Shown here one piece after another: positions 9,703-44,854 of a DNA stretch of 64,000 nucleotides. The translations under genes were made by a program, and so were the position numbers. Each line of letters begins with the position of its first letter. Position 1 is the stretch's first letter. Where the stretch lies: contig CANJMY010000002.1 of the NCBI GenBank assembly GCA_947475315.1, forward strand, positions 1 through 64,000. Direction: 5' to 3'. The notes below the pieces were generated by a model. It was not told where the DNA came from and ran no database searches. It saw only the letters and a list, made by a program, of their open reading frames with translations. The DNA comes from Pseudomonadota bacterium. GTDB taxonomy: Bacteria > Myxococcota_A > UBA796 > GCA-2862545.

Positions 9703-11409
<1,707 letters not shown>

Positions 11410-11417
11410 CGAGGCTA

Positions 11418-11454
11418 CCCTCCGCTCGCGCGACGACGCCGCGCGAGCAGAGGG
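11418..11454. terminator. GC-rich hairpin between rpoD and the convergent tRNA
   Basis: Arms GCTCGCGCG (11424-11432) and CGCGCGAGC (11440-11448) pair perfectly around a short loop, extended outward by CCCTC/GAGGG. It lies 9 nt after the rpoD stop and just beyond the 3' end of the tRNA on the other strand. No T-run, so termination is inferred from strength and position only; it could work for both strands. Confidence 0.5.
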
Positions 11455-11457
11455 AGT

Positions 11458-11534
11458 TGGTGGGCCCACTAGGACTTGAACCTAGGACACTCCGGGTATG
11501 AGCCGGGTGCTCTGACCAACTGAGCTATAGGCCC
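11458..11534 (-). tRNA. tRNA with CAU anticodon (elongator Met or Ile2)
   Basis: The minus strand folds as a 77-nt tRNA including an encoded CCA. The acceptor stem GGGCCTA/TGGGCCC pairs (one T-G wobble), the D arm is GCTC..GAGC, the anticodon loop is CTCATAC and the T arm CTAGG-TTCAAGT-CCTAG. G1-C72 excludes the initiator type. One mismatch (C27-A43) tops the anticodon stem. Whether it is elongator Met or lysidine-modified Ile2 cannot be settled by eye. It lies just downstream of rnpB and may be cotranscribed in part. Confidence 0.93.
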
Positions 11535-11565
11535 CCGCGCGCACGTACCGCGTTGGCCTGCTCGG

Positions 11566-11598
11566 GAAAAGGCGACCGCCCCCTTGCGGGGACGGTCG
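11566..11598 (-). terminator. Rho-independent terminator of rnpB
   Basis: On the minus strand CGACCGTCCCC, a GCAA tetraloop and GGGGGCGGTCG form a long GC stem followed by CCTTTTCCC. It begins immediately after the P1 3' strand of the RNase P RNA, the expected position. The T-run is short, so readthrough into the tRNA is possible. Confidence 0.8.
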
Positions 11599-11599
11599 G

Positions 11600-12025
<426 letters not shown>

Positions 12026-12056
12026 CGCCGTCTAACCGGTCCGAGCGCGCCCGGAG

Positions 12057-13397
12057 CTACTTCCACACGCCCGCAGCGCCCGTCGACAGATCAATGCCGT
12101 GGACGGCGTGAGCGGAGTCGCCGATCAGGTCCAGGAACACCTGCTCGTTGGCGGCGCGGACCTCGGGCATGGCGTCGAACGCGCCGGACTTCACGATGGC
12201 GGCCGCGGCCGCGATCAGCTCGCGCTCGGCCAGCGCGACGCTGTCCACGATGTCCTTGTCGGCCGGACCCAGCAGGCCCTCGGCGGCGCCGCGCTGCAGC
12301 GTCTCCAGGTGGTGGCCGACCATCTTGAGCCGCTGCACCAACAGCAGCGACTTGGCCTTGGGCACGCGCACCAGCATGTCGTCGATGATGCCGAGCTCGA
12401 TCGGGAAGCGCCACGCTTGCACATGCAGCGCGTCGACCACCGCCGCGCGGTCCTCGGGCGTACCAAACCCGCGCGACACCGCGTACGACGCGCCCTGGAG
12501 CAGGTGCGCGCCCCCGCAGGTGTACGCGAAGATCCCCTGCTTCTGCTTCTGGAACGTGCCGCCCGACGCCTTGGCCTCACGGAGGAAAGCCGTCTCCAAA
12601 ACAAGCTTCTGCACCACCGCGTGCGTGAACAGGTCGACGGTCATCGCGTGCCCACCGTCGGCGGTCCACGCGTAGGCAGGCGGCGCCCAGGCCGTGATGG
12701 CCTGCAGCGTCCACGGGGTGTCGTTCCAGCTGCCAAGCGACGTGGTGTCACCGTCCACCCAGGTCCCGAGCACGGTGCCGCGCCACAGGTCGCCCACCAT
12801 GGCGGGCGCGCCCTGCACGGTGACGGCGCGGTCGGGCTTCACGCCCATGTCGGTCAGGATCTTGATGGTCAGGCCGCTGTGTGGCTCGACCCGGATGTCG
12901 CCGCGCGCCTTCATGAAGCGCACCACGTCGGCGGCGCCGATCGTCGCCCGCTCCGCGTAGGTCGCGAACAGGAAGTCGACCGCCGAGCCGCCGTCCGGCA
13001 TCTTCCCGTCGGAGCCCAGGCCCTGCAGCGCGTGGCCGATCGCCCACGCGTTGTTCGGGTCAAAGCCCCACTTGGCGACTACGGCGGCGAGCGTCGCCCG
13101 GGTGGCGGCGAGCTCCTTGGAGGCCGGCGCGGCGAGCGGGCTCAACGAGGCGTGATCCGGCACCGCGAGCGCTAAGTCCGGCAGCGCGGGCGCAGGCTTG
13201 GGCGGCGCGACGTCGACCGGCCGAGCGTCGGCGACCGGCGCCACGCCCGACGGCGCCTCAGACGAGCCCGCGCACGCGCCGACGAGGACCAGCCCCGCCA
13301 AGACGCCCCCGCGATGAGCCCGCGCGACGAGCCCAGCCTGCCGACCGACGACCGGGCCCACCCGAAGGGCCCGCGCGCGCGGCGCCAAGGCGCTCAC
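12057..13397 (-). CDS. Large lipoprotein of unknown function
   Basis: A 446-residue protein with an unusually long N-terminal region before the lipobox LVLVGAC, so an internal start near the GTG of GPVVGRQAG is possible; the GTG at 13397 overlaps the preceding stop by GTGA. After the cysteine comes a Pro/Ala linker, then a helical and beta body: TLAAVVAKWGFDPNNAWAIG, FMKARGDIRVEPHSG, GTWVDGDTTSLGSW and GIFAYTCGGAHLLQGASYAV. No motif was recognised. It is the last gene of the tdk to lipoprotein run and converges closely on rnpB: its stop lies 31 nt upstream of the RNA's 5' end, on the same strand, so the rnpB promoter overlaps its 3' end. Confidence 0.8.
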   Translation of the reverse strand: MSALAPRARALRVGPVVGRQAGLVARAHRGGVLAGLVLVGACAGSSEAPSGVAPVADARPVDVAPPKPAPALPDLALAVPDHASLSPLAAPASKELAATRATLAAVVAKWGFDPNNAWAIGHALQGLGSDGKMPDGGSAVDFLFATYAERATIGAADVVRFMKARGDIRVEPHSGLTIKILTDMGVKPDRAVTVQGAPAMVGDLWRGTVLGTWVDGDTTSLGSWNDTPWTLQAITAWAPPAYAWTADGGHAMTVDLFTHAVVQKLVLETAFLREAKASGGTFQKQKQGIFAYTCGGAHLLQGASYAVSRGFGTPEDRAAVVDALHVQAWRFPIELGIIDDMLVRVPKAKSLLLVQRLKMVGHHLETLQRGAAEGLLGPADKDIVDSVALAERELIAAAAAIVKSGAFDAMPEVRAANEQVFLDLIGDSAHAVHGIDLSTGAAGVWK

Positions 13398-15217
13398 TCC
13401 TCGAACTCGTTCTCCGCGCCCTTGCGGGCCGCTTCCCGCAGCTCGAGCACGTCCACCTTCAGGACCTTCCCGTCGGTCGAGACGTAGAGCATGTCCTGGA
13501 AGACGGCGAAGCGCGGCGGCGAGATGCCGACCTTGGAGAAGCTGACGGTGAACTCGGGCTTGCCCGGGCTCTTGAACTTCACGGCATCGCCGCGGTCGGT
13601 CACCGCCCACAGCTTGCCCTTCTCGTCGGTGGCCAGCGACCACGCCTCGTAGCCGTTGGGCAGCTCGTCGCCGTCCAGCAGCACGTGGTGACGGAAGCCC
13701 AGCGTGTCGTACTCGACCGCGCCGCGGTGGAAGCCCAGCGCCAAGCGCCCGTTCTTCAGGACCGCCGCCGCGATCGGCGCGCCGTCCTCGATGTCCCAGC
13801 TGTTCTTGAGCTCGCCGTCGTTGTTGTAGACGTAGCCGCTGGACCCGACGATCGCGACGATGTTGCCGCCGACGACCAGCAGGTGCCCGCCGCCGCCGAC
13901 GCCGGCCTCGGCCGGCTTGCCGTCCACCTTCCAGCCGTGCAGGAATTGCCCGTTGCCGTCGAACCAGGAGATGTGGCCGAGCGCGTCAAGCACCACGACC
14001 TCGTCGGGGTCGTGGCCCGGGACGATCGCCACGGCGATGGGATCCGTGAACCCGCCGTCCGCGGTGGAGGCCGCCATGCCCGCCACGTAGTGACGACGCT
14101 TGCCGCCAAACCAGGTGTCCGTGATGTTCGGATCCCCTTTGCCCCACGCGCTGCGCAGGCGGCCGTCCGGGCCGTAGACGTTCACGCGCTGGTTGGCGGT
14201 GTCGGCCACGTAGACGTCGCCGTACTGGCCGAGCGCCACGCCGGCGGGCTCGCCAAACGTGTGGATCGCGCCCTTCTCCCAGCCCTGCTCACCCCAGGGG
14301 GCGATGACCCGACGGCCGCCGCCCTTGAGCTGAGCGTAGGCCTCGAAGTACGACACCAATCCCTCGTACCGGCGGGCGTCCTTGCCGCGCGAGCGCAGCG
14401 CCGCGAGCTGAATGCCGGGGATGGCGTTCGGGTCCTTCAGCTTGAGCAGCGCGCCGATCGCCTCGGCGTCCGCCGGCAGCGCCTGGAGCCGGTAGCCAAG
14501 GGGCGCCTCCTTCTTCACGCGGTCCCGCAGGTACGGGGCGCCGTCGCCCGCCCAGGCGACAAGCTGCGCGAGCGCGTCACGGTCGCCAAATTCGGCCGCG
14601 GTGAAGCGGTCGAACAGCGTGATGATCTCGTCCTTGTGGGCCACCGCGGCCTTCACACCCGCGTCGCTCGCCACGTAGGCGTCGATCTTGTCGAACGTAG
14701 GCGCCACACCCGCCGAGAAGTTCAGCGCGACCTCGGCGATGTAGGCGTCGTCGTGCAGGTAGCCGTTGTAGACCTCGTCGAGGCGGATGCGGATGCGGTC
14801 CGCGTCGCCCACCACCGTCACGTCCACGCGCTGCGCGCCCGCGCTGCCGACGTCGCGCATGGCGGTCTGGGCGGTCACGGGCTCGCCCTTGCCGATCAGC
14901 TCGACGGTCACCACCTTGGGGCGGCCGTTCTCCTTGGTGGAGCGGTCGTCGCGCGACAGGTCACCCGGCCAGATCGACACGGACTCGATCGCCGTGGTGT
15001 GATCCAGCGTGATCTCAATCCAGGCGCCCTCACCCGGGCCGATGTCGCCCTCGGCCCACGCGGTGGACATCAGGCCGTCGAAGGCCAGCTCCGCGCCGTG
15101 GGTCACGCCCTCGGAGTCCTTGAGCACGCTGGACGCCTTCACCGAAGAGGACGCGGCGAACGCCGACGTCGACAAGGCAAGCGACGCCACGACACACGCG
15201 ATGCGAATGTCCGTCAT
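13394..15217 (-). CDS. Secreted protein with NADase-type glycan-binding/discoidin-like domain and NHL beta-propeller
   Basis: A 607-residue exported protein. A Sec signal ends near AFAASS. Residues ~25-165 show the discoidin-like pattern AELAFDGLMSTAWAEG, ...EGAWIEITLDH, NGRPKVVTVELIG and YNGYLHDDAYIAEVAL, which fits the NADase-type glycan-binding fold. A helical connector follows, then an NHL propeller beginning GEPAGVALGQYGDVYVADTA with NQRVNVYGPDG, and repeats of about 45 residues to the end. NHL propellers bind proteins or carbohydrates; binding partner unknown. It overlaps the following lipoprotein by GTGA. Confidence 0.82.
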   Translation of the reverse strand: MTDIRIACVVASLALSTSAFAASSSVKASSVLKDSEGVTHGAELAFDGLMSTAWAEGDIGPGEGAWIEITLDHTTAIESVSIWPGDLSRDDRSTKENGRPKVVTVELIGKGEPVTAQTAMRDVGSAGAQRVDVTVVGDADRIRIRLDEVYNGYLHDDAYIAEVALNFSAGVAPTFDKIDAYVASDAGVKAAVAHKDEIITLFDRFTAAEFGDRDALAQLVAWAGDGAPYLRDRVKKEAPLGYRLQALPADAEAIGALLKLKDPNAIPGIQLAALRSRGKDARRYEGLVSYFEAYAQLKGGGRRVIAPWGEQGWEKGAIHTFGEPAGVALGQYGDVYVADTANQRVNVYGPDGRLRSAWGKGDPNITDTWFGGKRRHYVAGMAASTADGGFTDPIAVAIVPGHDPDEVVVLDALGHISWFDGNGQFLHGWKVDGKPAEAGVGGGGHLLVVGGNIVAIVGSSGYVYNNDGELKNSWDIEDGAPIAAAVLKNGRLALGFHRGAVEYDTLGFRHHVLLDGDELPNGYEAWSLATDEKGKLWAVTDRGDAVKFKSPGKPEFTVSFSKVGISPPRFAVFQDMLYVSTDGKVLKVDVLELREAARKGAENEFEE

Positions 15218-15237
15218 TCTAGCTCTCCCAGGGCAGC

Positions 15238-15654
15238 TCAGGGCGCGGCTGCGTCCGTGTCATCGCCAGGAACCACGTCCGTGTCTTCGGCGGGCGTGGT
15301 GTCTTCGGAGCCCGCGGGGGGGCAGTCCGTGTAGACTAGGTCGCAGGACGCGGGGCGGTCGGCCAAGGTGCCGGCGGCGGCCGGACACTTGAGCGCGTCC
15401 ATGTCGAGCAGGCACTGGCTGGCGGTGGAGGCCACGTAGCGGCAGCCCGCGCCCCACAGCTGCACGTCATCGATGGTGGCGCCCTCGCAGTCTTCCTGCG
15501 TGAGGATGCCGTCGAAGGTCAGCGTGGCTTGGTCCGAGCAAGCCAGCGTGTGCTTGCAGAGGGCCGTGTTGTACGAGACGAGAAATTCGCCCTCCTGCGG
15601 ACCGCAGGCGACGAACATCAGGGGAAGAAAGGCGAGGGCCAGGAAGCTGCGCAA
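15238..15654 (-). CDS. Small Cys-rich lipoprotein with DTD tail
   Basis: A 138-residue lipoprotein: signal FLALAFLPLMFVAC, then a globular part with conserved cysteines in ALCKHTLACSD, EDCEGAT, AGCRYVASTASQCLLDM and LVYTDCPP, and an acidic tail of repeated DTD. The cysteine spacing and the string CLLDMDAL resemble CLDAMEAL in the lipoprotein at 15736-16062, so the two are probably diverged paralogues. Extracytoplasmic, disulfide-stabilised; no enzymatic motif. It precedes the NHL protein by 20 nt. Confidence 0.78.
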   Translation of the reverse strand: MRSFLALAFLPLMFVACGPQEGEFLVSYNTALCKHTLACSDQATLTFDGILTQEDCEGATIDDVQLWGAGCRYVASTASQCLLDMDALKCPAAAGTLADRPASCDLVYTDCPPAGSEDTTPAEDTDVVPGDDTDAAAP

Positions 15655-15735
15655 GACGACCTCAGGGCGATGGCGCGAACCCTACCCGAAGAACGCGGCG
15701 ACCACAAGAACTAGTCCAACCAACACACGAGGTGT

Positions 15736-16062
15736 TCACGGCGCCGGGTCACACGTGAACGCTTCGGCGCAAGCGTCAGGCAGCGCAAACACCCCAGGCG
15801 AGCCGTCAGGGTCAGCGCAGTCGGCGGCGGTCAACGCCTCCATCGCGTCCAGGCAAGTCCGCCCCTTGGAAGGGTGGAACGCGCACAGGTCGTCCGCCGC
15901 CCGGATGTCGTCGGTGTCCCGAGGGGGCGCGGCGCAGTCGTTGCCGCCGCAGACCTCACACTGGGCCCGCACGTCGGCGTCGAGCGCGTTGCGGAATTCC
16001 GAGGCGCCGAGGCCGCAGCCCGCCAGCCCAAGCAGCGATCCGAGGAGCACGAGTCGCAGCAT
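15736..16062 (-). CDS. Small Cys-rich lipoprotein
   Basis: A 108-residue lipoprotein starting LRLVLLGSLLGLAGC. The mature part has the order AQCEVCGGNDC, DDLCAFHPSKGRTCLDAMEAL, ADCADPDGSPG and AFTCDP. I use the ATG at 16062, after GGGGGA, 2 nt behind the thymidine-kinase stop; a TTG two codons earlier would overlap it. Probably paralogous to the gene at 15238. Function unknown. Confidence 0.75.
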   Translation of the reverse strand: MLRLVLLGSLLGLAGCGLGASEFRNALDADVRAQCEVCGGNDCAAPPRDTDDIRAADDLCAFHPSKGRTCLDAMEALTAADCADPDGSPGVFALPDACAEAFTCDPAP

Positions 16063-16064
16063 GG

Positions 16065-16670
16065 TCAAGATCCCCCTGCGAGCGGGAGGCGTTCCTGCTC
16101 GGCGTCAAAGCGGTCCGGGTTCCAGTGCCGACGGCAGCGAGCCTCGTAGGACTCCTCTGCGCCGAGCAACACAAGCGCGTCGCCGCGGACCAGGCGCTGG
16201 GTGCGGCTGGCCGGCCCCCCGCAGATGGTGCACACCGCGTGGTTCTTGGTGATCACGTCGGCGATCGCCAGCAGCTCCGGCATGGGCTCGAACGGCCGCC
16301 CCCGGTAGTCCTGGTCCAGCCCCGCCACGATCACCCGCCGACCTTCGTCCGCGAGCTTGGTGACCACCAGGGGCAGGTCTGGGCCCAAGAACTGGGCCTC
16401 GTCGATGCCGATCACGTCCGCGTCGCCCGCGAGCGCGAGGATGTCCGTGGCCCGCGCGACCGAGGTGCACGACTGCTGCGCGGCCGAGTGCGCCACGACG
16501 GCGTCCGGAGCGTGCCGCTGGTCGGTCTCTGGCTTGAAGATCAACACGCGCTGCCGACCGATCTGCGCACGCCGGACACGACGGAGCAACTCCTCCGTCT
16601 TTCCGGAGAACATGCAGCCGGTGATCACCTCGATCCATCCGGCGCCGAGCGGGTAGGCGTGCGGCATCAT
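16065..16670 (-). CDS. tdk: Thymidine kinase
   Basis: A 201-residue type II thymidine kinase that phosphorylates thymidine in the salvage pathway. It has the P-loop GCMFSGKT, the DEAQF catalytic/metal segment (VIGIDEAQFL), the GLDQDYRGRPF element and a zinc lobe with CTICGG and the final CRRHW ligands, plus the lasso in ASRTQRL. Length fits the family. The start is one of two tandem ATGs at 16670/16667. It heads a run of minus-strand genes and is divergent from the alpha/beta hydrolase with a short shared upstream region. Confidence 0.94.
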   Translation of the reverse strand: MMPHAYPLGAGWIEVITGCMFSGKTEELLRRVRRAQIGRQRVLIFKPETDQRHAPDAVVAHSAAQQSCTSVARATDILALAGDADVIGIDEAQFLGPDLPLVVTKLADEGRRVIVAGLDQDYRGRPFEPMPELLAIADVITKNHAVCTICGGPASRTQRLVRGDALVLLGAEESYEARCRRHWNPDRFDAEQERLPLAGGS

Positions 16671-16735
16671 CGGCCGTCGTGTAGCATGGCGGGTGTGGGA
16701 TGTCCCGGCACCGCAGCGACCCCATCGAGGCCCCG

Positions 16736-17746
16736 ATGAACGCACAGCATCGACTGGCGATCGAGCACCACACCGTCACCACGCCCGACGGCTGGACACT
16801 GGAGCTGCGCCGCGGCCGCGGGGCGAACGGCCCTGTGAACGGCATGCCGGTGCTGTTCGTGCACGGCTACGGGATGAACGCGCACCTGTTCCACGCCCAC
16901 CCCACCGGGCCGTCCTTCTTCGACGTGCTGATGGAGCACGGGCTCGACCCGTGGGCGGTCGACCTGCGCGGCACCAAGACCAGCGAGGCGCCGCACGCCT
17001 GGAGCGCGGTCCGCTTGGCCGACATCGCGTTCAAGGACGTGCCCGCGTCCATCGACCACGTGCGCGCCGTCACCGGTCGCGACCGCATCCACGCGATCGG
17101 CGTCAGCTTGGGGGGCGGCGCGCTCTACGCGCACGTCGGACGCGACGCGCACCACATCGACCGTCTGGTCACCATGGGCAGCCCGCTCGTGTGGCAGGAT
17201 CGCGGCGCCGTCTTGTGGACCTTCGGGGCCCTGGGGCCCGCGCTCAGTCGCATCCCCCTGCGCGGAACCACCCAAGCCGCGCGCGCCGTCCTCCCCCTCG
17301 CCCGTCGCCTGGGGCCGAAGGCGGTCGGCTTCTACGTGAACCCCGAGATCACCGACACGCTCCACCCCGAGACGCTGCTGCGGACCATCGAAGATCCACA
17401 CCCCGACGTGTCCGCGTCGCTCTCGCGCTGGATCCGGCAGCGACACCTCGTCCTGGCCGGTCACCACGTGACGCACGGGCTCAAGGCCTTCGGCCGCCCC
17501 ACCCTGGCCGTCTACGCCGAGGGCGATGGCGTGTGTCCGCCCGCGGCGGCGCGCGCGGTGCTCGACTACACAGGCGGCCCGGTCGACACGCTGGCGATCG
17601 ACGACGGCCCCAACCGCGTGAGCCACGTCGACCTGTTCGCGGCGCACTTCGCGCCCGAGCGGGTGTTCCCGCCCGTGGCGCGCTGGCTCGCGGGGCCCGA
17701 GCCTACGCTTCAGCCGGCGGCGACGCGTCCCCGCGGATCGCGGTGA
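16736..17746 (+). CDS. Alpha/beta-fold hydrolase
   Basis: A 336-residue hydrolase. Strand-turn PVLFVHGYGMNA, oxyanion-type HGYG, the nucleophile elbow GVSLGGG with Ser, an acid in EGDGVCPPAAA and the catalytic His in RVSHVDLF near the C-terminus. The cap region (residues ~190-250) is helical. Resembles acyltransferase/esterase-like abhydrolases that act on lipids or polyhydroxyalkanoate-type polymers, substrate unknown. The ATG at 16736 follows GAGG; an upstream ATG at 16700 would add 12 residues. Its 3' end overlaps the convergent gene by 44 nt. Confidence 0.82.
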   Translation: MNAQHRLAIEHHTVTTPDGWTLELRRGRGANGPVNGMPVLFVHGYGMNAHLFHAHPTGPSFFDVLMEHGLDPWAVDLRGTKTSEAPHAWSAVRLADIAFKDVPASIDHVRAVTGRDRIHAIGVSLGGGALYAHVGRDAHHIDRLVTMGSPLVWQDRGAVLWTFGALGPALSRIPLRGTTQAARAVLPLARRLGPKAVGFYVNPEITDTLHPETLLRTIEDPHPDVSASLSRWIRQRHLVLAGHHVTHGLKAFGRPTLAVYAEGDGVCPPAAARAVLDYTGGPVDTLAIDDGPNRVSHVDLFAAHFAPERVFPPVARWLAGPEPTLQPAATRPRGSR

Positions 17747-18536
17747 GCAGCGAGCGGATCCGCGCCTCGGCGTCGTCGTCGTCCTCGGGGTCGACCAGCG
17801 TCAGCGCCTCCTCCAGCCGCGCGATCGAGCGCCCGACGCGGCCCGCCTCCCGATCGATTTGAGCGGCGATCCACAGCGCCTGGATGCGCGTGCGCGCGTC
17901 CAGCGCAGACAAGGCCAGCAGCGACTCGACCGCGGGCCCCGCCGCCGCCTCGTCGGCGCCCAGCAGGCGGAAGATCTGCAGCAGACGCACGCGGCCCAGG
18001 TTCTCCTCGTCGTCGAACGGGCCCGCCGCCGACGCCGCCAGCAGCATGTCGACGTGATCGTCCCAGCCGACGTCGCCCGCGACCTCAGCCAGCGCCCACA
18101 GCACCTCGCCGGGCGAGATGTGCGCGCCGGTCGCCGTGCGCGCGAACCCGGCGGCGGACACCTCGGCCGCCCGCGCCAAGCCGTTCCCGGTCACGCCCGT
18201 GCGCAGGCCAGCCAGCTCCAGCACGCACAGCCCGACCCACGCCGGGTGGCGACGCAGCAGGTCTGCGCCGTCCAGCGCGTCCGCCATGAACGAGGAGATC
18301 GCCGCGTCCGCCGCGTCCAGCCAAGGACCACGCTCGGCCGAATCCGGTACCAGGACGGAGAGCAGCCGCAGCGCGCCCGCGCGGACCTGGTCCATACCGG
18401 GGGTCTCGGCGAGCTCGTCGAGCAGCGCGTCCCGGTGTGCGCGAGCCCACGCGACGGCCGCGCGGCCATCCTGTCCGGCGCCCAGCGACGGCAGGAGACC
18501 CAGGAATTCGGCCCTCTCTTCGGACGACAGCGACAC
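17703..18536 (-). CDS. Helical protein of unknown function
   Basis: A 277-residue protein that looks all-helical and Ala/Leu rich, with repeated motifs such as LDAADAAISSFMADAL and LLALSALDARTRIQALWIAA. The central region could be HEAT- or TPR-like. It is acidic near the C-terminus (DPEDDDDAEAR). No signal peptide or membrane segment. Convergent with the hydrolase, divergent from the winged-helix protein. Confidence 0.65.
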   Translation of the reverse strand: MSLSSEERAEFLGLLPSLGAGQDGRAAVAWARAHRDALLDELAETPGMDQVRAGALRLLSVLVPDSAERGPWLDAADAAISSFMADALDGADLLRRHPAWVGLCVLELAGLRTGVTGNGLARAAEVSAAGFARTATGAHISPGEVLWALAEVAGDVGWDDHVDMLLAASAAGPFDDEENLGRVRLLQIFRLLGADEAAAGPAVESLLALSALDARTRIQALWIAAQIDREAGRVGRSIARLEEALTLVDPEDDDDAEARIRSLLTAIRGDASPPAEA

Positions 18537-18677
18537 GGGAACCTCCGAGGCGGCGCCACCTAGCCCATCCGGAAGCGTCGCACCCGCGGGCGCCGCTGCA
18601 CTTCACCCTCAAGGAATCCGCCCGCGTACCGATACGGAACCACGAGGCAGTCCCGCCTCACACCCACGGAGGCCACG

Positions 18678-19178
18678 TTGACCCGCTTCGTCCTGCCCCG
18701 GACGCGACGCGCGACCGGCGCGACCACCGAACTCGACTTAGCGCCGCTCGTCGATCGCACGCTGCGCTTCCTTGAGTCGAGCCCGCGGGGCGCTGCGCGC
18801 AAGGACATCCTCGCCGCGATGAGCCTGCAGCAGGCCGTGTGGCCCGCGCTGCGTGAGGCGCTCGAAGAGACCGGACGGGTCCTGGCCGTCGGTCGCGGCC
18901 CCGGGCTGCGACACGTCCACGTCCGCCACGCCGACGCTATCCCCCGCGACACGATGGAGATCAGCGTGTTCCCGGAGCGCATCCAGCAGCTGGAAGGCGC
19001 CCGGGTGGTGCTGCGCGAGCGCATGCGCCAAGAGATCGAGATGGACAGCCAGCGCGCGCAGACGCTTACGGGCCTCAAGGCGGACCCGGTCCGTCGCCTG
19101 CTGCTTGAGCTCGTCGACGAGGGCCGCGTGGAGCGCTTCGGCAACAAGCGCAGCACTCGGTACCGCTGGGTCGGCTGA
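18678..19178 (+). CDS. Putative winged-helix DNA-binding protein
   Basis: A 166-residue protein starting at TTG (GGAGG 6 nt upstream). Two helix-turn-helix-like regions are visible: VDRTLRFLESSPRGAARKDI...SLQQAVWPALREALEETGRV and a second near KADPVRRLLLELVDEGRVER. It ends RYRWVG, a wing-like strand. No ligand-binding domain. Function is inferred only from the fold-like pattern; a local regulator is possible. Confidence 0.55.
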   Translation: MTRFVLPRTRRATGATTELDLAPLVDRTLRFLESSPRGAARKDILAAMSLQQAVWPALREALEETGRVLAVGRGPGLRHVHVRHADAIPRDTMEISVFPERIQQLEGARVVLRERMRQEIEMDSQRAQTLTGLKADPVRRLLLELVDEGRVERFGNKRSTRYRWVG

Positions 19179-19195
19179 TCGTCGGGCGCACATCG

Positions 19196-19256
19196 CGCGC
19201 GGGCATCCGTTGTCCGGTTGGCGCGGCGTGGTGACGCGCGGGCATCCGTTGTCCGG
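19196..19256 (+). repeat. 22-bp perfect direct repeat, 39 bp apart
   Basis: CGCGCGGGCATCCGTTGTCCGG occurs at 19196-19217 and again at 19235-19256. Both copies lie in the short gap between the winged-helix protein and the small gene at 19278, the second ending 21 nt before that start. The 39-bp period is close to four helical turns, as expected for paired operator sites, but it may also be a local duplication. Confidence 0.8.
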
Positions 19257-19277
19257 GCACGCCGGTACAGTCCGGAC

Positions 19278-19583
19278 ATGCCCAAGCCCATCCACGACTT
19301 CGAGCCCACCGCCTCCTGGTGGTATACCGCCCTCCAAGAACAGCGCGACGACGGCTGGTACGTCTCGCTCGCCGGGATCGAGCCCGTGTGGAGCGCGGGC
19401 CCCCTGCCCAGCGCCGACGCCGCGCGCAGCCTGCTCGCCGAGCAGCTCGCGCGCTGGGTCACGCGCGCCAAAGCCGCCGGGGGCTATGCCGCCGTGCAGT
19501 TCAACGGCGTGCTGGTCACGCTGCCGCGCATGAAGGGCAAGCCGCGCGGCGCGCTGCCTGCGTGGCGCAGGCCCAAGGGCTGA
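19278..19583 (+). CDS. Small protein of unknown function
   Basis: A 101-residue soluble protein, rich in Trp and Ala: WWYTALQEQRDDGWYVSLAG, AARSLLAEQLARWVTRAKAAG and a C-terminus GVLVTLPRMKGKPRGALPAW. The order strand-helix-strand suggests a compact alpha/beta domain, loosely similar to HicB-like RNA-sensing folds, but I would not assign it. Start ATG 19278 lies after the two direct repeats. Tightly followed by the convergent SRPBCC gene. Confidence 0.6.
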   Translation: MPKPIHDFEPTASWWYTALQEQRDDGWYVSLAGIEPVWSAGPLPSADAARSLLAEQLARWVTRAKAAGGYAAVQFNGVLVTLPRMKGKPRGALPAWRRPKG

Positions 19584-19587
19584 CGCC

Positions 19588-20034
19588 TCACAAGGCGCGT
19601 CGCCGCGTGACCTCGGCATTCAGCGCCGCGGCCATGCTCGCAAATCCGCGCTCCAGCGACGCGCCGTAGCGCCAGCGCACGATCGGCAGCAGCGCGCCGC
19701 CGATCTCATCGACCGTCTGGTAGTGCGTGCGCCCGTCCGGCAGCGCAGTGAGCGTCTGCGTGCGACGCGCCCACAGCAGCCAGCGCGGCAGCGTGTCGAG
19801 CGCCCACACGATCTGGCGCGGCGCGTCGAGCACGCGCAGCGTCTCGGTCTGCTCCAGCACGCCCAGCGGCCCCATGTCGACGGTCATCACCACCGGCGTG
19901 CCCAGCACCCCGCTCGTCCGAACCTGACGTGTAAACGGGTTCCACGAGGGGTACGCGTCAAAGTCGACCAGGACCGACCACACGAACTCCGGGCTCGCGT
20001 CCAGCGTGGTTTCGGCGCTCCAAATTGCGTGCAT
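19588..20034 (-). CDS. SRPBCC-family protein
   Basis: A 148-residue START/Bet-v1-fold protein (polyketide cyclase/dehydrase-like). Typical features are the N-terminal strand-helix TTLDASPEFVWSVLVDFDAYPSWNPF, the middle ETLRVLDAPRQIVWALD and the long C-terminal helix with RGFASMAAALN. Such proteins bind hydrophobic ligands. Divergent from the SDR gene. A second SRPBCC protein is at 40332. Confidence 0.82.
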   Translation of the reverse strand: MHAIWSAETTLDASPEFVWSVLVDFDAYPSWNPFTRQVRTSGVLGTPVVMTVDMGPLGVLEQTETLRVLDAPRQIVWALDTLPRWLLWARRTQTLTALPDGRTHYQTVDEIGGALLPIVRWRYGASLERGFASMAAALNAEVTRRRAL

Positions 20035-38436: not shown

Positions 38437-38465
38437 AATGTATGTCGTCGCTTACAGGGCGGCAA
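38437..38465 (-). promoter_or_regulatory. Promoter of the TPR/winged-helix gene, leaderless geometry
   Basis: TTGCCG and TACATT are 17 nt apart on the minus strand, and the -10 ends 7 nt before ATG at 38429, so transcription may start at or near the A of ATG. No ribosome-binding site is seen. A plus-strand TATATT at 38485-38490 may serve the divergent vWA gene, but its -35 is weak. Confidence 0.55.
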
Positions 38466-38570
38466 ACCAACCGTATCATCACCTTATATTGGCGACGTGA
38501 CGTCGCGTCGCCTCGCGTCGAGGCGCGCCACGGCCGCCGCCGCTACTTCGGCCCCATCGAGGAATGCCCG

Positions 38571-39620
38571 ATGTCGAGTATGACCGTTCGTTTGTCCCTG
38601 GTGATCGGTCTGGCCTCGTCGGCGTGCCGGCGGGATGTGTTCCTGGAGTCGCTCGCCAAGACCGACGTGTTCTCGCAGCGCGCGCCGTCGGAGGTCGACG
38701 TCCTCCTGGTGGTCGACAACTCCTTCTCGATGGCGCCCTTTCAGGCTCAGCTGTCGAGCGGCTTCGAGCCGCTCGTCGGACAGTTTCGCGACGCGGACGT
38801 CGACCTGCACCTAGGGGTCGTGACGACCTCGGTCGCGCCCGCGTTCCGCAGCGCGGAGAACGGCTGCACGGCACAGGACGTCATCGAGTCGCCCGCGCCG
38901 TTCACGCTCGCGGGGGACACCTTCCTCACCCTCGAGACGCCGGACGTGAACAGCGCCTTTGCTGACCTCGTGAAGGTTGGCGTGTGCGGTGACGGATCCG
39001 AGATGGGCATGCACGCGGCGTGGAAGCTGCTGACGAGCCCGGAGGCCAAGAGTTCGGGCTTCCTGCGGGATGAGGCCGCGCTGTCGGTCCTGGTTGTCTC
39101 CGACGAGGACGACTCGTCGCCGCTGTCCTCCGCTTGGTACGTGGACGACCTCCGAAAGCTTAAGGGCTCCGGTCGGCGCGACGGGGTCCTGTTCTCGTCG
39201 CTCACGACCGTGGACCCCGCGAACTGCAAGGATGGCCAGGGCGACAACGCCACGGTGGGCGCCCGCTACGCGCTCGCGGTCGGCGCGACGGGGGGCGTGG
39301 CCGGAGACATCTGCGCCGCTGACTACAGCCAGACGCTCGGCGATCTGTCCCGGCTCTCGTCCCGCCTGTACGACACCTTCTTCCTCTCGCAGGAACCAAA
39401 CGCGGCGAGCTTCAAGGTGACCGTCGACGAGGTCGAACAGCCCTGCGACTCGGGCGTCTGGAGCTTTCAGCGGGTCCCAGTCGAGGGCGTAGAGCAGCCT
39501 GCGATCGTGTTCGCGCCCGGACACATGCCGCACGCCGACAGCACGATCGTCATCCGCTACGACTTCGGGACGGGCGACCCCGCCGACTTCTGCCCGAGCG
39601 CGCAAGGGGACACGCCATGA
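38571..39620 (+). CDS. vWA-domain lipoprotein
   Basis: A 349-residue protein starting SSMTVRLSLVIGLASSAC, a lipobox with cysteine. The vWA domain has the MIDAS motif DNSFSM (DxSxS) in DVLLVVDNSFSMAPF, later T in GVVTTSVAP and the Asp of VSDEDDSSP. An internal disulfide-like pair lies in VGVCGDGSE and TVDPANCKDG. ATG 38571 follows GAGG. Its stop overlaps the next gene by ATGA. vWA domains bind protein ligands through metal; likely a cell-surface adhesion partner. Confidence 0.85.
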   Translation: MSSMTVRLSLVIGLASSACRRDVFLESLAKTDVFSQRAPSEVDVLLVVDNSFSMAPFQAQLSSGFEPLVGQFRDADVDLHLGVVTTSVAPAFRSAENGCTAQDVIESPAPFTLAGDTFLTLETPDVNSAFADLVKVGVCGDGSEMGMHAAWKLLTSPEAKSSGFLRDEAALSVLVVSDEDDSSPLSSAWYVDDLRKLKGSGRRDGVLFSSLTTVDPANCKDGQGDNATVGARYALAVGATGGVAGDICAADYSQTLGDLSRLSSRLYDTFFLSQEPNAASFKVTVDEVEQPCDSGVWSFQRVPVEGVEQPAIVFAPGHMPHADSTIVIRYDFGTGDPADFCPSAQGDTP

Positions 39621-40207
39621 CCCGCAACGTGTGGATCCTGACCCTTTTCTTGGCGAGCTGCGCCACCCGGCCTGCGACCCAAGGACCACCCGCCGACGCC
39701 GAGTGCGTGGACAATGCCGGTTGCGACATTGGCCAGGTGTGTGACGAGGCCTGGACCTGCCAGAACGTCGGGTGCCTCGCCTCTGACGACTGCTCGTTCG
39801 ATTCGGTGTGCGATGTCACCACCTTCGAGTGCGTGACTGGGTGCGCTCGTGATGCGGACTGCCTCGCGTCAGAGGCATGCGACCTCGCCACCAGCACCTG
39901 CGTCGCCCGCGGCTGCTCCGACACGCACCGCGACTGCGCTGTGGGGGAGATTTGCCAGGCGGGCGCGTGCATCACGGCGCCGGGCGATTGGTGCACGGAG
40001 TGCACCGGACGGCCCCTCGCCTGCGGTGCTTCACAGCACTGCGTCGCGTTCGATGGATCGAGCGGCTCGTTCTGCTTCAACGGCTGCCGCAACGACGGTG
40101 ACTGCCCCTCCGGCTTTGAGTGCCTGCAGATCGACCTGCAGCCCGGTGGTCCGACCAAGATGTGCTACGCGAACTGCGGCTTCCTGTCGGAGGGAGGGTT
40201 CTTCTAG
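39617..40207 (+). CDS. Cys-rich EGF-like lipoprotein
   Basis: A 196-residue lipoprotein with signal ILTLFLASC. The mature part is a series of Cys-rich units such as CVDNAGCDIGQVCDEAWTC, CLASDDCSFDSVCDVTTFEC and CARDADCLASEACDLATSTC, each with C.....C.....C.....C, like the Dickkopf/EGF-type units common in myxobacterial surface proteins. A longer unit RNDGDCPSGFECLQIDL is at the end. Overlaps the vWA gene by ATGA; the two are made together. Confidence 0.82.
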   Translation: MTRNVWILTLFLASCATRPATQGPPADAECVDNAGCDIGQVCDEAWTCQNVGCLASDDCSFDSVCDVTTFECVTGCARDADCLASEACDLATSTCVARGCSDTHRDCAVGEICQAGACITAPGDWCTECTGRPLACGASQHCVAFDGSSGSFCFNGCRNDGDCPSGFECLQIDLQPGGPTKMCYANCGFLSEGGFF

Positions 40208-41257: not shown

Positions 41258-41281
41258 TTTTCAAACCGATTGGTTTGAAAA
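41258..41281. promoter_or_regulatory. TetR operator 2
   Basis: TTTTCAAACC - GATT - GGTTTGAAAA, perfect 10-bp arms, 62 nt upstream of the regulator start, so it fits autoregulation. Shared core: TCAAACC..N..GGTTTGA. Confidence 0.88.
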
Positions 41282-41343
41282 GCGCTGAAGTCGTGGCGGC
41301 GTGGCCGATTCTCGGGCAAGAGCAGGCCGGGCGGACGAACACG

Positions 41344-41946
41344 ATGGGCAGACCCAAGTCCTACGACCGAGAGGAGATCCTGGAGAGGGCGATGCTCCTC
41401 TTCTGGCGCAAGGGCTATGAAGCCACGTCCACGGCGGACCTGGAAGCGGGCATGGGCGTGAACCGCTGCAGCCTGTACGCCGAGTTCGACAGCAAGCACG
41501 GGCTCTATCAGGCCGCGCTCGACCGCTACCTGACGTGCGTGGTGCCTGGCTTCCTGGGCGAACTGTACGCGCCCGATGCTGGGCCGGACGCGATCGCCGC
41601 CGTGCTGGGGCGCTTCGCCGACGCGGCCGGCGAGCCGGGCACGGAGCGAGGCTGCATGATCTGCAACGCGGCCACGGAGTCGTCGCCGGACGATCCCGAG
41701 ACGCGGTCGAGAGTGGAGCGCTACGTCGTGTTCCTCCGCGGCGGCTTCGAGCGGGCGCTCGTCAACGCCGTTGCGAGCGGCGCGCTACGCTCCGACGTGG
41801 ACGTCGACGCGTGGTCTGCGCGGCTCGCCACCACGCTCCTTGGCGTCTTCGTCCTAATCCGCTCGCAGCTCGACGGCTCCGTCGCCCGCCAAGCTGTGCA
41901 CTCTACGTTGACCGAACTGCTCCGGGGTGCGCCATCGCGTGCCTGA
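41344..41946 (+). CDS. TetR-family transcriptional regulator
   Basis: A 200-residue repressor. The N-terminus MGRPKSYDREEILERAMLLFW, then RKGYEATSTADLEAGMGVNRCSLYAEF and SKHGLYQAALDRY, is the TetR helix-turn-helix. The C-terminal helical ligand domain has ERGCMICNAATESS, as in the TetR subgroup with C-terminal domain TetR_C_16/33-like. Start ATG 41344. Two operators in the 172-bp divergent region imply control of itself and of DUF1330-SRPBCC. Confidence 0.9.
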   Translation: MGRPKSYDREEILERAMLLFWRKGYEATSTADLEAGMGVNRCSLYAEFDSKHGLYQAALDRYLTCVVPGFLGELYAPDAGPDAIAAVLGRFADAAGEPGTERGCMICNAATESSPDDPETRSRVERYVVFLRGGFERALVNAVASGALRSDVDVDAWSARLATTLLGVFVLIRSQLDGSVARQAVHSTLTELLRGAPSRA

Positions 41947-42030
41947 CGCGGTCCGGTGGTGTCGAGCGCCCGCGGTCGGCGTAGAGGGGCCACGAGATCC
42001 GACCTTGATGGATCTTAGTGTGGAGCCCTG

Positions 42031-43749
42031 ATGTCGAGTTCGATCCGCGCGCAGGGGAGCGTGGCCGTTGTCCTGGCGGCGCTCGTGGCTTGTACTGCTC
42101 AGCCTCCCGAGGCGGCCACGGCGGAGGCGCCGGCCGCGCCGTCTACGCCAACTGGCTTCCCGGGCGGCGCGGTCTCCACGCACGTACCGGTCGAGCTGGC
42201 CTTCCTGCTGTCCGGCGTGGACCTGGTGACGCTGTGGGCGAACGGCGGCGCGGACACCCACATGGGCACGCAGCTCGGCGATCGGGACCTCGGCTTCAAG
42301 CTGGTCCCCGGCGACGACTTCGCCGAGCAGCTCAAGCGCTACCAGAGTGGGCAGACCCCGTACCTGCGAGCCACCTGGGGCGCGGTCGGCTCCGTCTACG
42401 AGCAGCTGTGCCCGTCGCAGGAGGTCCCGACCTGCCCGCAGCTGGTGCTCGGCATGGGCGCGTCCAAGGACGACGAGCTGCTGGTTCGCGGCGACATCAA
42501 GACGGCCGCAGACCTCAAGGGCAAGCTGATCTCGCTGCAGCGCGGCGGCCCGCACCTGGAGGCGATGTTCTCGCTGCTCCGGGACTCGGGCGTGGCTTGG
42601 TCGGACGTGCGCATCCTCTGGAAGGAGCGGCTGATCGGGCCGGGCAGCGCCGCCGAAGCGTTCAGCGTCGACACCAATCTGACCGGCGCGTGGGCGCTGT
42701 CGCGGGACGTGCCGCCCCTGCTCAAGCCGACTGTCTCGGAGGGGGAGGCGCTCGCGCCAGCCCACGTTCTGACCACGTCGGCGGAGCACCCGGACCTCAT
42801 CCTGGACTGTCTCTTTGTACGCCAGGACTACCTGGCGGCCCACCCGGACGAGGTCGAACACCTGCGCGCGGGCTGGCTGCATGCCTCCGAGCAGGTCAAG
42901 GCGCTCCGCCCCGGCTCGCCCGAGTCCGACGCGTTTCTGACGGCGGTCGCCGGCGTCTACGGCCCCGGAGTGGTCACCGACCCGCCCGCTGCCCTGGCGC
43001 TGCTGGAGGGAGCGACGCTCTACGGCCTCGCGGACAATGTCCGGCTGAGCGGCGACTCGCCGGATCTGACCGATCACGTCGACCTCTCCGAGCGCAGCCG
43101 TGCCTTCGCGGAAGCGTCCGGGCGGCCCGTGTGGACCTGGACGATGGGCGTCGCGCCGACGCACTGGGGCGGCGCGGACTTCGCGGACCTTCCTCAGGAG
43201 GCCGCAGCCAGCGATCAGCGCGTGATCGTGCCGCTCAGCTCGGACGCCACGGCCTTTGACCCGGCGCCGTACGCGGCCGACCTCGACGGCGTCCTCGCCG
43301 CGCTCGCGACGGAGGGGACGGTCCTGCGCGTGCGCGGTCACGTCGATCCGCAGCGCGCCTTTGCGGCCGCGCTCAAGGCGGGGCTGGACAGCGGGAAGGT
43401 CGTGCGCGGCGGCACCGACGCGGCGCCCACCTACACGATCGACGGCAAGGTGCTCGACGTGACCGACGGCAAGGAGCTGGTGGCGGCGCTGCCGGTGCCT
43501 GCGGACGTCGCGCGTGAGGCTCGACTGGTGGCCACGACGCGCGCGCAGGCGGTCCGTGACGGCGTGCTCGCGTACGCGACCGCGCACGGGGGCGCGCTGG
43601 ACGCGGCGCGGGTGCAGGTTGAGGGTGTCGGCGTCGACGAGCCGCTCGTCGGGCTCACCGCCGTGGCGGAGCAGTCCGCCAAGAACCGTCGCGTCGAGCT
43701 GATCGTGGTGTCTGCGGGCCAGGCCGGCCCGACTGCGGGCGGCTGGTAG
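42031..43749 (+). CDS. Lipoprotein fusing an ABC substrate-binding-like region to an OmpA-like domain
   Basis: A 572-residue lipoprotein: signal VLAALVAC. Residues ~45-300 match periplasmic solute-binding proteins of the SsuA/NMT1 type (DLVTLWANGGADTHMG, ...RGDIKTAADLKGKLISLQRG, AEAFSVDTNLTGAWAL). After ~400 comes VIVPLSSDATAFDPAPYAAD, ...LRVRGHVDPQ, a ~60-residue insert, then TTRAQAVRDGVLAYA and NRRVELIVVS, an OmpA C-terminal peptidoglycan-binding fold with the NRRVE hallmark. So a solute-binding module is tethered by lipid and possibly to the cell wall. No transporter permease or ATPase gene adjoins. Confidence 0.8.
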   Translation: MSSSIRAQGSVAVVLAALVACTAQPPEAATAEAPAAPSTPTGFPGGAVSTHVPVELAFLLSGVDLVTLWANGGADTHMGTQLGDRDLGFKLVPGDDFAEQLKRYQSGQTPYLRATWGAVGSVYEQLCPSQEVPTCPQLVLGMGASKDDELLVRGDIKTAADLKGKLISLQRGGPHLEAMFSLLRDSGVAWSDVRILWKERLIGPGSAAEAFSVDTNLTGAWALSRDVPPLLKPTVSEGEALAPAHVLTTSAEHPDLILDCLFVRQDYLAAHPDEVEHLRAGWLHASEQVKALRPGSPESDAFLTAVAGVYGPGVVTDPPAALALLEGATLYGLADNVRLSGDSPDLTDHVDLSERSRAFAEASGRPVWTWTMGVAPTHWGGADFADLPQEAAASDQRVIVPLSSDATAFDPAPYAADLDGVLAALATEGTVLRVRGHVDPQRAFAAALKAGLDSGKVVRGGTDAAPTYTIDGKVLDVTDGKELVAALPVPADVAREARLVATTRAQAVRDGVLAYATAHGGALDAARVQVEGVGVDEPLVGLTAVAEQSAKNRRVELIVVSAGQAGPTAGGW

Positions 43750-43900: not shown

Positions 43901-44854
43901 ATGTACGGCGACATGACGCTGTTGACTGGCAACTCCAACCGCGCGCTCGCTGCGCGCATCTCGGAGGCCTTGGGCGTGCCCCTGGGTGACGCCCGCGTGA
44001 GCCGCTTCTCGGACGGCGAGATCCGCGTGGAGATCCACGAGAACGTCCGCGGTCGCGACGTGTTCATCGTGCAGTCCACCTGCGCGCCGTCGAATGACCA
44101 TCTCATGGAGCTGCTGATCATGGCGGACGCGTGCAAGCGCGCCAGCGCCGGTCGCATCACCGCGGTCATCCCGTACTTCGGCTACGCCCGTCAGGACCGC
44201 AAGGTCCAGGCCCGCGCGCCCATCACCGCCAAGCTCATCGCGGATCTCATCCACGCGGCGGGCATCGAGCGCGTCCTGACCATGGACCTGCACGCAGGCC
44301 AGATCCAGGGCTTCTTCAACCTGCCCGTGGACAACCTCTACGCGCAGCCGCTGCTGTACCGTCACCTTGAGGCCGAGCTCGCGGGCAAGCCGTCGGTCAT
44401 GGTGTCGCCGGACGCGGGCGGCGTGGAGCGCGCGCGCAGCTACGCCAAGCGCCTCGAGACCACGCTCGCCATCATCGACAAGCGCCGCAGCAAGCCCAAC
44501 GAGGCTGAAGTCAGCCACATCATCGGCGACGTGCGCGAGCGCACCGCCGTGCTGATCGACGACATGATCGACACCGCGGGCACCCTGGCCAAGGGCGGCC
44601 AGGCGGTCGCGGGGGCAGGGGCCGCGAGCGTCATGGCCGTCGCCACGCACGCGGTGCTCTCCGGACCCGCCGTGGAGCGCATCGCGGGCTCGGTGTTCGA
44701 CAAGGTGATCGTCACCGACACCATCCCGCTCTCTGCCGAGGCCCAGGCCTGCGGCAAGATCCAGCAGGTCTCGGTCGCGCCGCTGTTCGCCAACGCCATC
44801 CAGGCGATCCATGCGAACGACTCCATCTCGCGGCTGTTCCTCGAAGAGTCCTGA
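43901..44854 (+). CDS. prs: Ribose-phosphate pyrophosphokinase
   Basis: A 317-residue PRPP synthetase that makes PRPP from ribose 5-phosphate and ATP. N-terminal FSDGEIRVEIHENVRG, the flexible loop RQDRKVQARAPITAKLIAD, the phosphate-binding VLIDDMIDTAGTLAKGGQ and LHAGQIQGFFNLPVDN are all present. Start ATG 43901 is likely; a second ATG 4 codons on is possible. Precedes rplY and pth, a common bacterial order. Confidence 0.96.
   Translation: MYGDMTLLTGNSNRALAARISEALGVPLGDARVSRFSDGEIRVEIHENVRGRDVFIVQSTCAPSNDHLMELLIMADACKRASAGRITAVIPYFGYARQDRKVQARAPITAKLIADLIHAAGIERVLTMDLHAGQIQGFFNLPVDNLYAQPLLYRHLEAELAGKPSVMVSPDAGGVERARSYAKRLETTLAIIDKRRSKPNEAEVSHIIGDVRERTAVLIDDMIDTAGTLAKGGQAVAGAGAASVMAVATHAVLSGPAVERIAGSVFDKVIVTDTIPLSAEAQACGKIQQVSVAPLFANAIQAIHANDSISRLFLEES

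Follow-up and report, generated by a model that had tools for sequence, protein, structure and literature searches.

A solute-binding/OmpA-like fusion protein is a probable orphan of a transporter-linked family

What does a solute-binding protein (SBP) that carries an OmpA-like domain do where no transporter is encoded beside it? The question is raised by a gene at positions 42031–43749 of a 64,000-nucleotide window (the whole stretch of DNA analysed), present in one copy in its own genome (G000). An earlier note on this DNA had described the product, here called the query, as a lipidated SsuA/NMT1-like region joined to an OmpA-type domain with the motif NRRVEL and a ~60-residue insert, and had called the fusion, with neither permease nor ATPase nearby, a little-described arrangement. 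The gene, its parts and its immediate neighbours are listed below.

41275–41946, + strand: TetR-family regulator (Pfam TetR_N, TetR_C_13), 84 bp upstream of the SBP-OmpA gene; context only
42022–42025, + strand: Shine-Dalgarno-like GGAG, 5' of the ATG (sequence)
42031–43749, + strand: SBP-OmpA gene for a predicted lipoprotein, an open reading frame of 572 amino acids (orthologue L002/P0003 94% identical)
42031–42093, + strand: predicted lipoprotein signal peptide, lipobox LVAC with Cys21 (sequence; kept in P0003)
42166–43020, + strand: SsuA/TauA/NMT1-type solute-binding domain, residues about 46–330 (TIGR01728, Foldseek, model)
43021–43215, + strand: linker, residues 331–395 (pLDDT below 50, low model confidence)
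43216–43716, + strand: OmpA-like domain, predicted to bind peptidoglycan, residues 396–562 (weak TssL/MotB/YfiB matches; alignment with OmpA-domain relatives)
43345–43347, + strand: Asp439, equivalent of AbOmpA Asp271 in GHxD (alignments)
43348–43521, + strand: stretch inserted in this family between Asp439 and Arg504; the model shows a helix, a beta-hairpin and a helix (Asp-Arg spacing; model)
43540–43542, + strand: Arg504, equivalent of AbOmpA Arg286 (xxRA) (alignments)
43684–43701, + strand: NRRVEL C-terminal OmpA motif, residues 552–557 (sequence)
43901–44854, + strand: ribose-phosphate pyrophosphokinase (Pfam), downstream housekeeping neighbour; context only

Further upstream, the window contains a lipoprotein-like open reading frame at 38442–39620 (+ strand) with a VWA-like DNSFSM motif and no Pfam match, followed by a cysteine-rich reading frame at 39617–40207.

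The same gene occurs in the same place in a second genome of the genus (G001), where it is 94% identical and lies within about 13 kb of conserved synteny. Comparison of the query with this single orthologue gave a dN/dS of 0.23 (NG86) or 0.09 (YN00), and third codon positions hold 62 of the 98 differences. The SBP-OmpA gene is under purifying selection; dN/dS and the conserved synteny together rule out a pseudogene or a chance reading frame. Elsewhere in G001, a secreted reading frame (L085:2088–3083) has a terminal GCGCAQ...RRRRRG tail similar to MYXO-CTERM, which suggests that the genus belongs to the Myxococcota.

The query begins with a lipobox (L18-V-A-C21) that is conserved in the same-genus orthologue, and lipoboxes are also present in the relatives from G041 and G295; lipidation of Cys21 is predicted from this motif. 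The domains that follow are weak on sequence alone, since a Pfam search of the query protein matched no family (PF09084 and PF00691 included) and every NCBIfam match fell below its cut-off. The match to TIGR01728 (SsuA_fam) had an E-value of 1.4e-6 and 27.7 bits, below the curated cut-off of 163.5. An AlphaFold model built from a seven-sequence alignment was of moderate quality (mean pLDDT 59, mostly 50–85 across residues 100–310). In a Foldseek search this model matched SsuA, TauA and Thi5 with E-values of 7e-10 to 1e-7 and a probability of 1.0; the matches to SsuA and TauA (7e-10 to 1e-8) identify a type II periplasmic-binding fold, within the limits of a moderate model. P0002, from a genome of the same order (G041), is a homologue with about 30% identity to the query over its full length; it exceeds the Pfam cut-offs for NMT1 as well as OmpA (the latter with 28.6 against 27.2 bits). 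Because P0002 clears both cut-offs and the query model matches SsuA, TauA and Thi5, the domain assignment is sound, and the reading of a lipidated SsuA/NMT1-like region agrees with the lipobox, the sub-cut-off TIGR01728 match and the structural matches, with lipidation as a prediction. The query thus resembles SsuA and TauA (TIGR01728; PDB 2x26, 3uif, 6ssy) in its SBP fold, with a weak sequence match far below the family cut-off; unlike the query, these proteins have no OmpA domain and no wall anchor and are part of a complete transporter.

The C-terminal part is of OmpA type, as had been proposed: NRRVEL occupies residues 552–557, P0002 clears the Pfam OmpA cut-off, and the NCBIfam families TssL, MotB and YfiB match this region weakly. 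In alignments, D439 (GHVD) and R504 (TRAQAV) are in register with the diaminopimelate-contacting Asp and Arg of canonical OmpA domains. In Acinetobacter OmpA these are Asp271 and Arg286, which bind diaminopimelate (PMC5974059). The earlier note had named this residue pair in advance as the point on which its anchor could fail, and both residues are present. The OmpA-like domain of the query is predicted, from its sequence, to tether the protein to peptidoglycan. The query shares the diaminopimelate-contacting Asp and Arg and the NRR motif with the OmpA domains of Pal, OprF, AbOmpA and PA0833, but differs from them in a net insert of about 50 residues, in the SBP domain in front and in missing the Pfam cut-off. 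The spacing between D439 and R504 is 65 residues, compared with 15 in canonical domains; it is 75–81 in close chromosomal and phage relatives (a net insert of 60–61) and 15–19 in a more distant set. The insert is thus a feature of the clade, and the ~60 residues first estimated come close to the query value and equal that of its close relatives. In the query the insert is modelled as a helix, a beta-hairpin and a second helix. A Zorya-like anti-phage defence role was also considered; it is ruled out by PADLOC, in which the query matched no Zorya (ZorB) or other anti-phage defence model, and the relatives gave only weak ZorB matches, in the OmpA region.

We searched 379 genomes of the phylum with a profile and found relatives in 45. 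The flanks of 20 regions, along with six earlier ones, were then searched with proteins of a Vibrio plasmid cluster (see below). An ABC permease and ATPase cluster with the SBP-OmpA gene, usually directly downstream, at all 20 loci with enough flank, and Pfam confirms both components in the clusters of sampled relatives. Outside these 20 stand two loci that end at a contig edge yet retain a VWA gene (L054, L055), one very weak match with nothing found in its flanks (L071), an SBP without an OmpA part (L015) and two matches in the OmpA part only (L017, L018). In the closest clade (G041, G130, G224), a larger set of SBP-OmpA, VWA and second SBP-OmpA genes is shared with the Vibrio plasmids, and contigs that extend far enough also hold the permease and ATPase. 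Many more distant members start with an N-terminal transmembrane (TM) anchor that appears uncleaved, consistent with an SBP held at the inner membrane. Three-gene operons of SBP-OmpA, ABC permease and ATPase are widespread on chromosomes of this phylum (L056–L070 and L072).

Outside the phylum, three Vibrio plasmids (L019, L020, L021) carry SBP-OmpA beside an ABC permease and ATPase. Their locus, at about 10380–19770, encodes an ABC ATPase, SBP-OmpA, VWA, a second SBP-OmpA, TelA, a urea-type SBP (over the TIGR03427 cut-off) and a permease, and lies near an RctB-type replication gene. Two Vibrio plasmid proteins, WP_176703825.1 and WP_126605899.1 (annotated 'Nitrate ABC transporter substrate-binding protein' / 'OmpA family protein'), have the domain order of the query and are homologous to P0002 over their full length (31–32% identity over 93–96%), with GHxD and xxRA conserved; a neighbour in the plasmids is annotated 'phosphate ABC transporter substrate-binding/OmpA family protein'. 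In contrast to the query, the Vibrio SBP-OmpA lacks a lipobox, has a shorter insert, keeps the family SBP motifs intact and is encoded with an ABC ATPase, permease, VWA, TelA and urea-type SBP.

The same cluster is present in a 595-kb phage genome (LR756511), in huge-phage contigs (494 kb and 436 kb) and on smaller fragments; its genes run SBP-OmpA, VWA, second SBP-OmpA, membrane protein, coiled coil, SBP, permease, ATPase. These eight genes lie at L075:14911–23473, L087:10001–18012 and L090:10001–19606, and also at L089, L091 and L092. The SBP-OmpA proteins of LR756511 and IMG/VR are homologous fusions with the same insert as the query; unlike it, they are phage-encoded and adjoin an ABC ATPase and permease. 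A more distant SBP-OmpA occurs in 15 Lak phage records, beside an ATPase (Pfam ABC_tran); in the one record examined, the SBP-OmpA exceeds the Pfam cut-offs for NMT1 and OmpA. At the permease position the Lak phages encode a predicted membrane protein that is permease-like but not recognised by Pfam. In Prevotella phage Lak-B1 (L076:10180–16646, TAG read as Q), a TM-anchored SBP-OmpA with canonical OmpA spacing is followed by the permease-like protein and the ABC ATPase.

With permease and ATPase clustered at 20 of 20 loci in the phylum, on three Vibrio plasmids and on several huge-phage contigs, the SBP-OmpA architecture is a transporter-linked kind, and the gene at 42031–43749 is an orphan of it. 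The fusion without a transporter is thus a local condition and does not hold as an arrangement of the family. A transporter linked to the gene in relatives was the other finding that the earlier note had named in advance as speaking against its reading. In the phylogenetic tree, the query and its orthologue group with the G041 and G295 proteins (support 96/97), and this group falls within the transporter-linked clade. The stem shared by the query and its orthologue, at 2.13 changes per column, is the longest in that clade, a length that calls for caution; nesting in a transporter-linked clade on its longest branch again marks the query as an orphan.

Divergence along this branch was assessed against the family-invariant residues of eight linked members, each of which was itself scored on the invariants of the other seven. 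Linked members keep 82–100% of these residues; the query retains 23 of the 40 in its SBP domain and 13 of the 23 in its OmpA domain, a loss of ~40%. Among the residues kept are D439, R504, N552, R554 and GH. In the SBP domain, WGGD has become SGVD and SxGD has become SKDD, and the TPD(M/A)..LTGG..GxGAE stretch has been lost, with a deletion. The pattern of motifs fits an anchor that was retained and a ligand that may have been changed or lost.

The absence of partners extends beyond the locus. A tblastn search of the whole window detected neither a permease nor an ATPase of the cluster type, which bears out the statement that neither is nearby. Profiles for the cognate permease, which score 318 bits in control genomes, reached at most 46 in G000 and G001; the second SBP-OmpA reached at most 59 (OmpA part only) against 720–728 in controls, and the VWA protein at most 45 against 277–302. 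No TelA was found in G000. The permease, VWA protein and second SBP-OmpA are absent from the two genomes of the genus, an absence that is not absolute because the genomes are 85% (G000) and 96% (G001) complete; for the ATPase a genome-wide search is uninformative, as generic ABC ATPases would match too. That the transporter exists and merely fell outside the assemblies is highly improbable. The query's own genome is indeed a fragmented bin of 151 contigs, 85% complete, but local synteny is conserved in two species, so the transporter is not adjacent, and the permease, second SBP-OmpA and VWA protein went undetected in both genomes, including the one that is 96% complete.

SBPs can serve unlinked transporters, and the query could in principle act in trans, still delivering a ligand to an ABC transporter whose genes lie at another locus. 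An intact SBP fold under purifying selection is compatible with such use, and G001 has a separate NMT1-like ABC operon (L085). This operon, however, already encodes a lipoprotein SBP, and its permease reaches 46 bits, compared with the 318 of cognate permeases; the query's own genome yielded no comparable permease, and SBP motifs invariant in the family are eroded in the query. We consider delivery in trans unlikely.

A little less likely still is the role suggested in the earlier note, sensing or storing a ligand at the cell wall with no transport involved; the adjacent TetR gene might then take part in the response. The SBP fold, lipobox and peptidoglycan-contacting residues have all been kept, no cognate transporter was detected in the genus, and the TetR gene lies 84 bp upstream on the same strand. 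Against this, the gene's neighbours include neither a sensor kinase nor a chemoreceptor nor any further signalling partner, the family SBP motifs are lost, the relatives are linked to transporters, and a TetR neighbour is weak evidence.

We favour, with moderate confidence, the reading that the query is an orphaned, fast-diverged SBP-OmpA of an ABC-importer family whose partners were lost while the gene was kept and repurposed as a tethered envelope lipoprotein. In linked members, the binding protein probably does not diffuse freely but is kept on peptidoglycan, close to its permease, by the OmpA domain. The genus would have lost the permease, ATPase, VWA protein and second SBP-OmpA, with purifying selection retaining the SBP-OmpA gene. 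The query would now most likely bridge the membrane, through a lipid on Cys21, and the wall, through D439 and R504, and its SBP domain may have been repurposed with its ligand changed or lost.

Each domain by itself is a classical one, and SBP-OmpA proteins of this kind already have names at NCBI. A search of openly available papers found none on the fusion family or its clusters, and a word search of open papers on huge phages and Lak phages found OmpA, permease and ABC transporter unmentioned. It is conceivable, at somewhat less than even chances, that peptidoglycan-anchored ABC importers form an undescribed class with members on Myxococcota-like chromosomes, on Vibrio plasmids and in huge phages (Lak megaphages among them), and that here the anchored SBP persisted after the loss of its transporter and acquired a new function in the envelope.

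As an orphan of a transporter-linked family, the query amounts to a natural loss experiment on the purpose of the wall anchor. The broader and more interesting lead is an ABC system that has received little study, has its binding protein anchored to the wall and is intact on huge phages and Vibrio plasmids. For a phage whose ABC importer cluster includes peptidoglycan tethers, the question is what is imported, or how the host envelope is altered, during infection.
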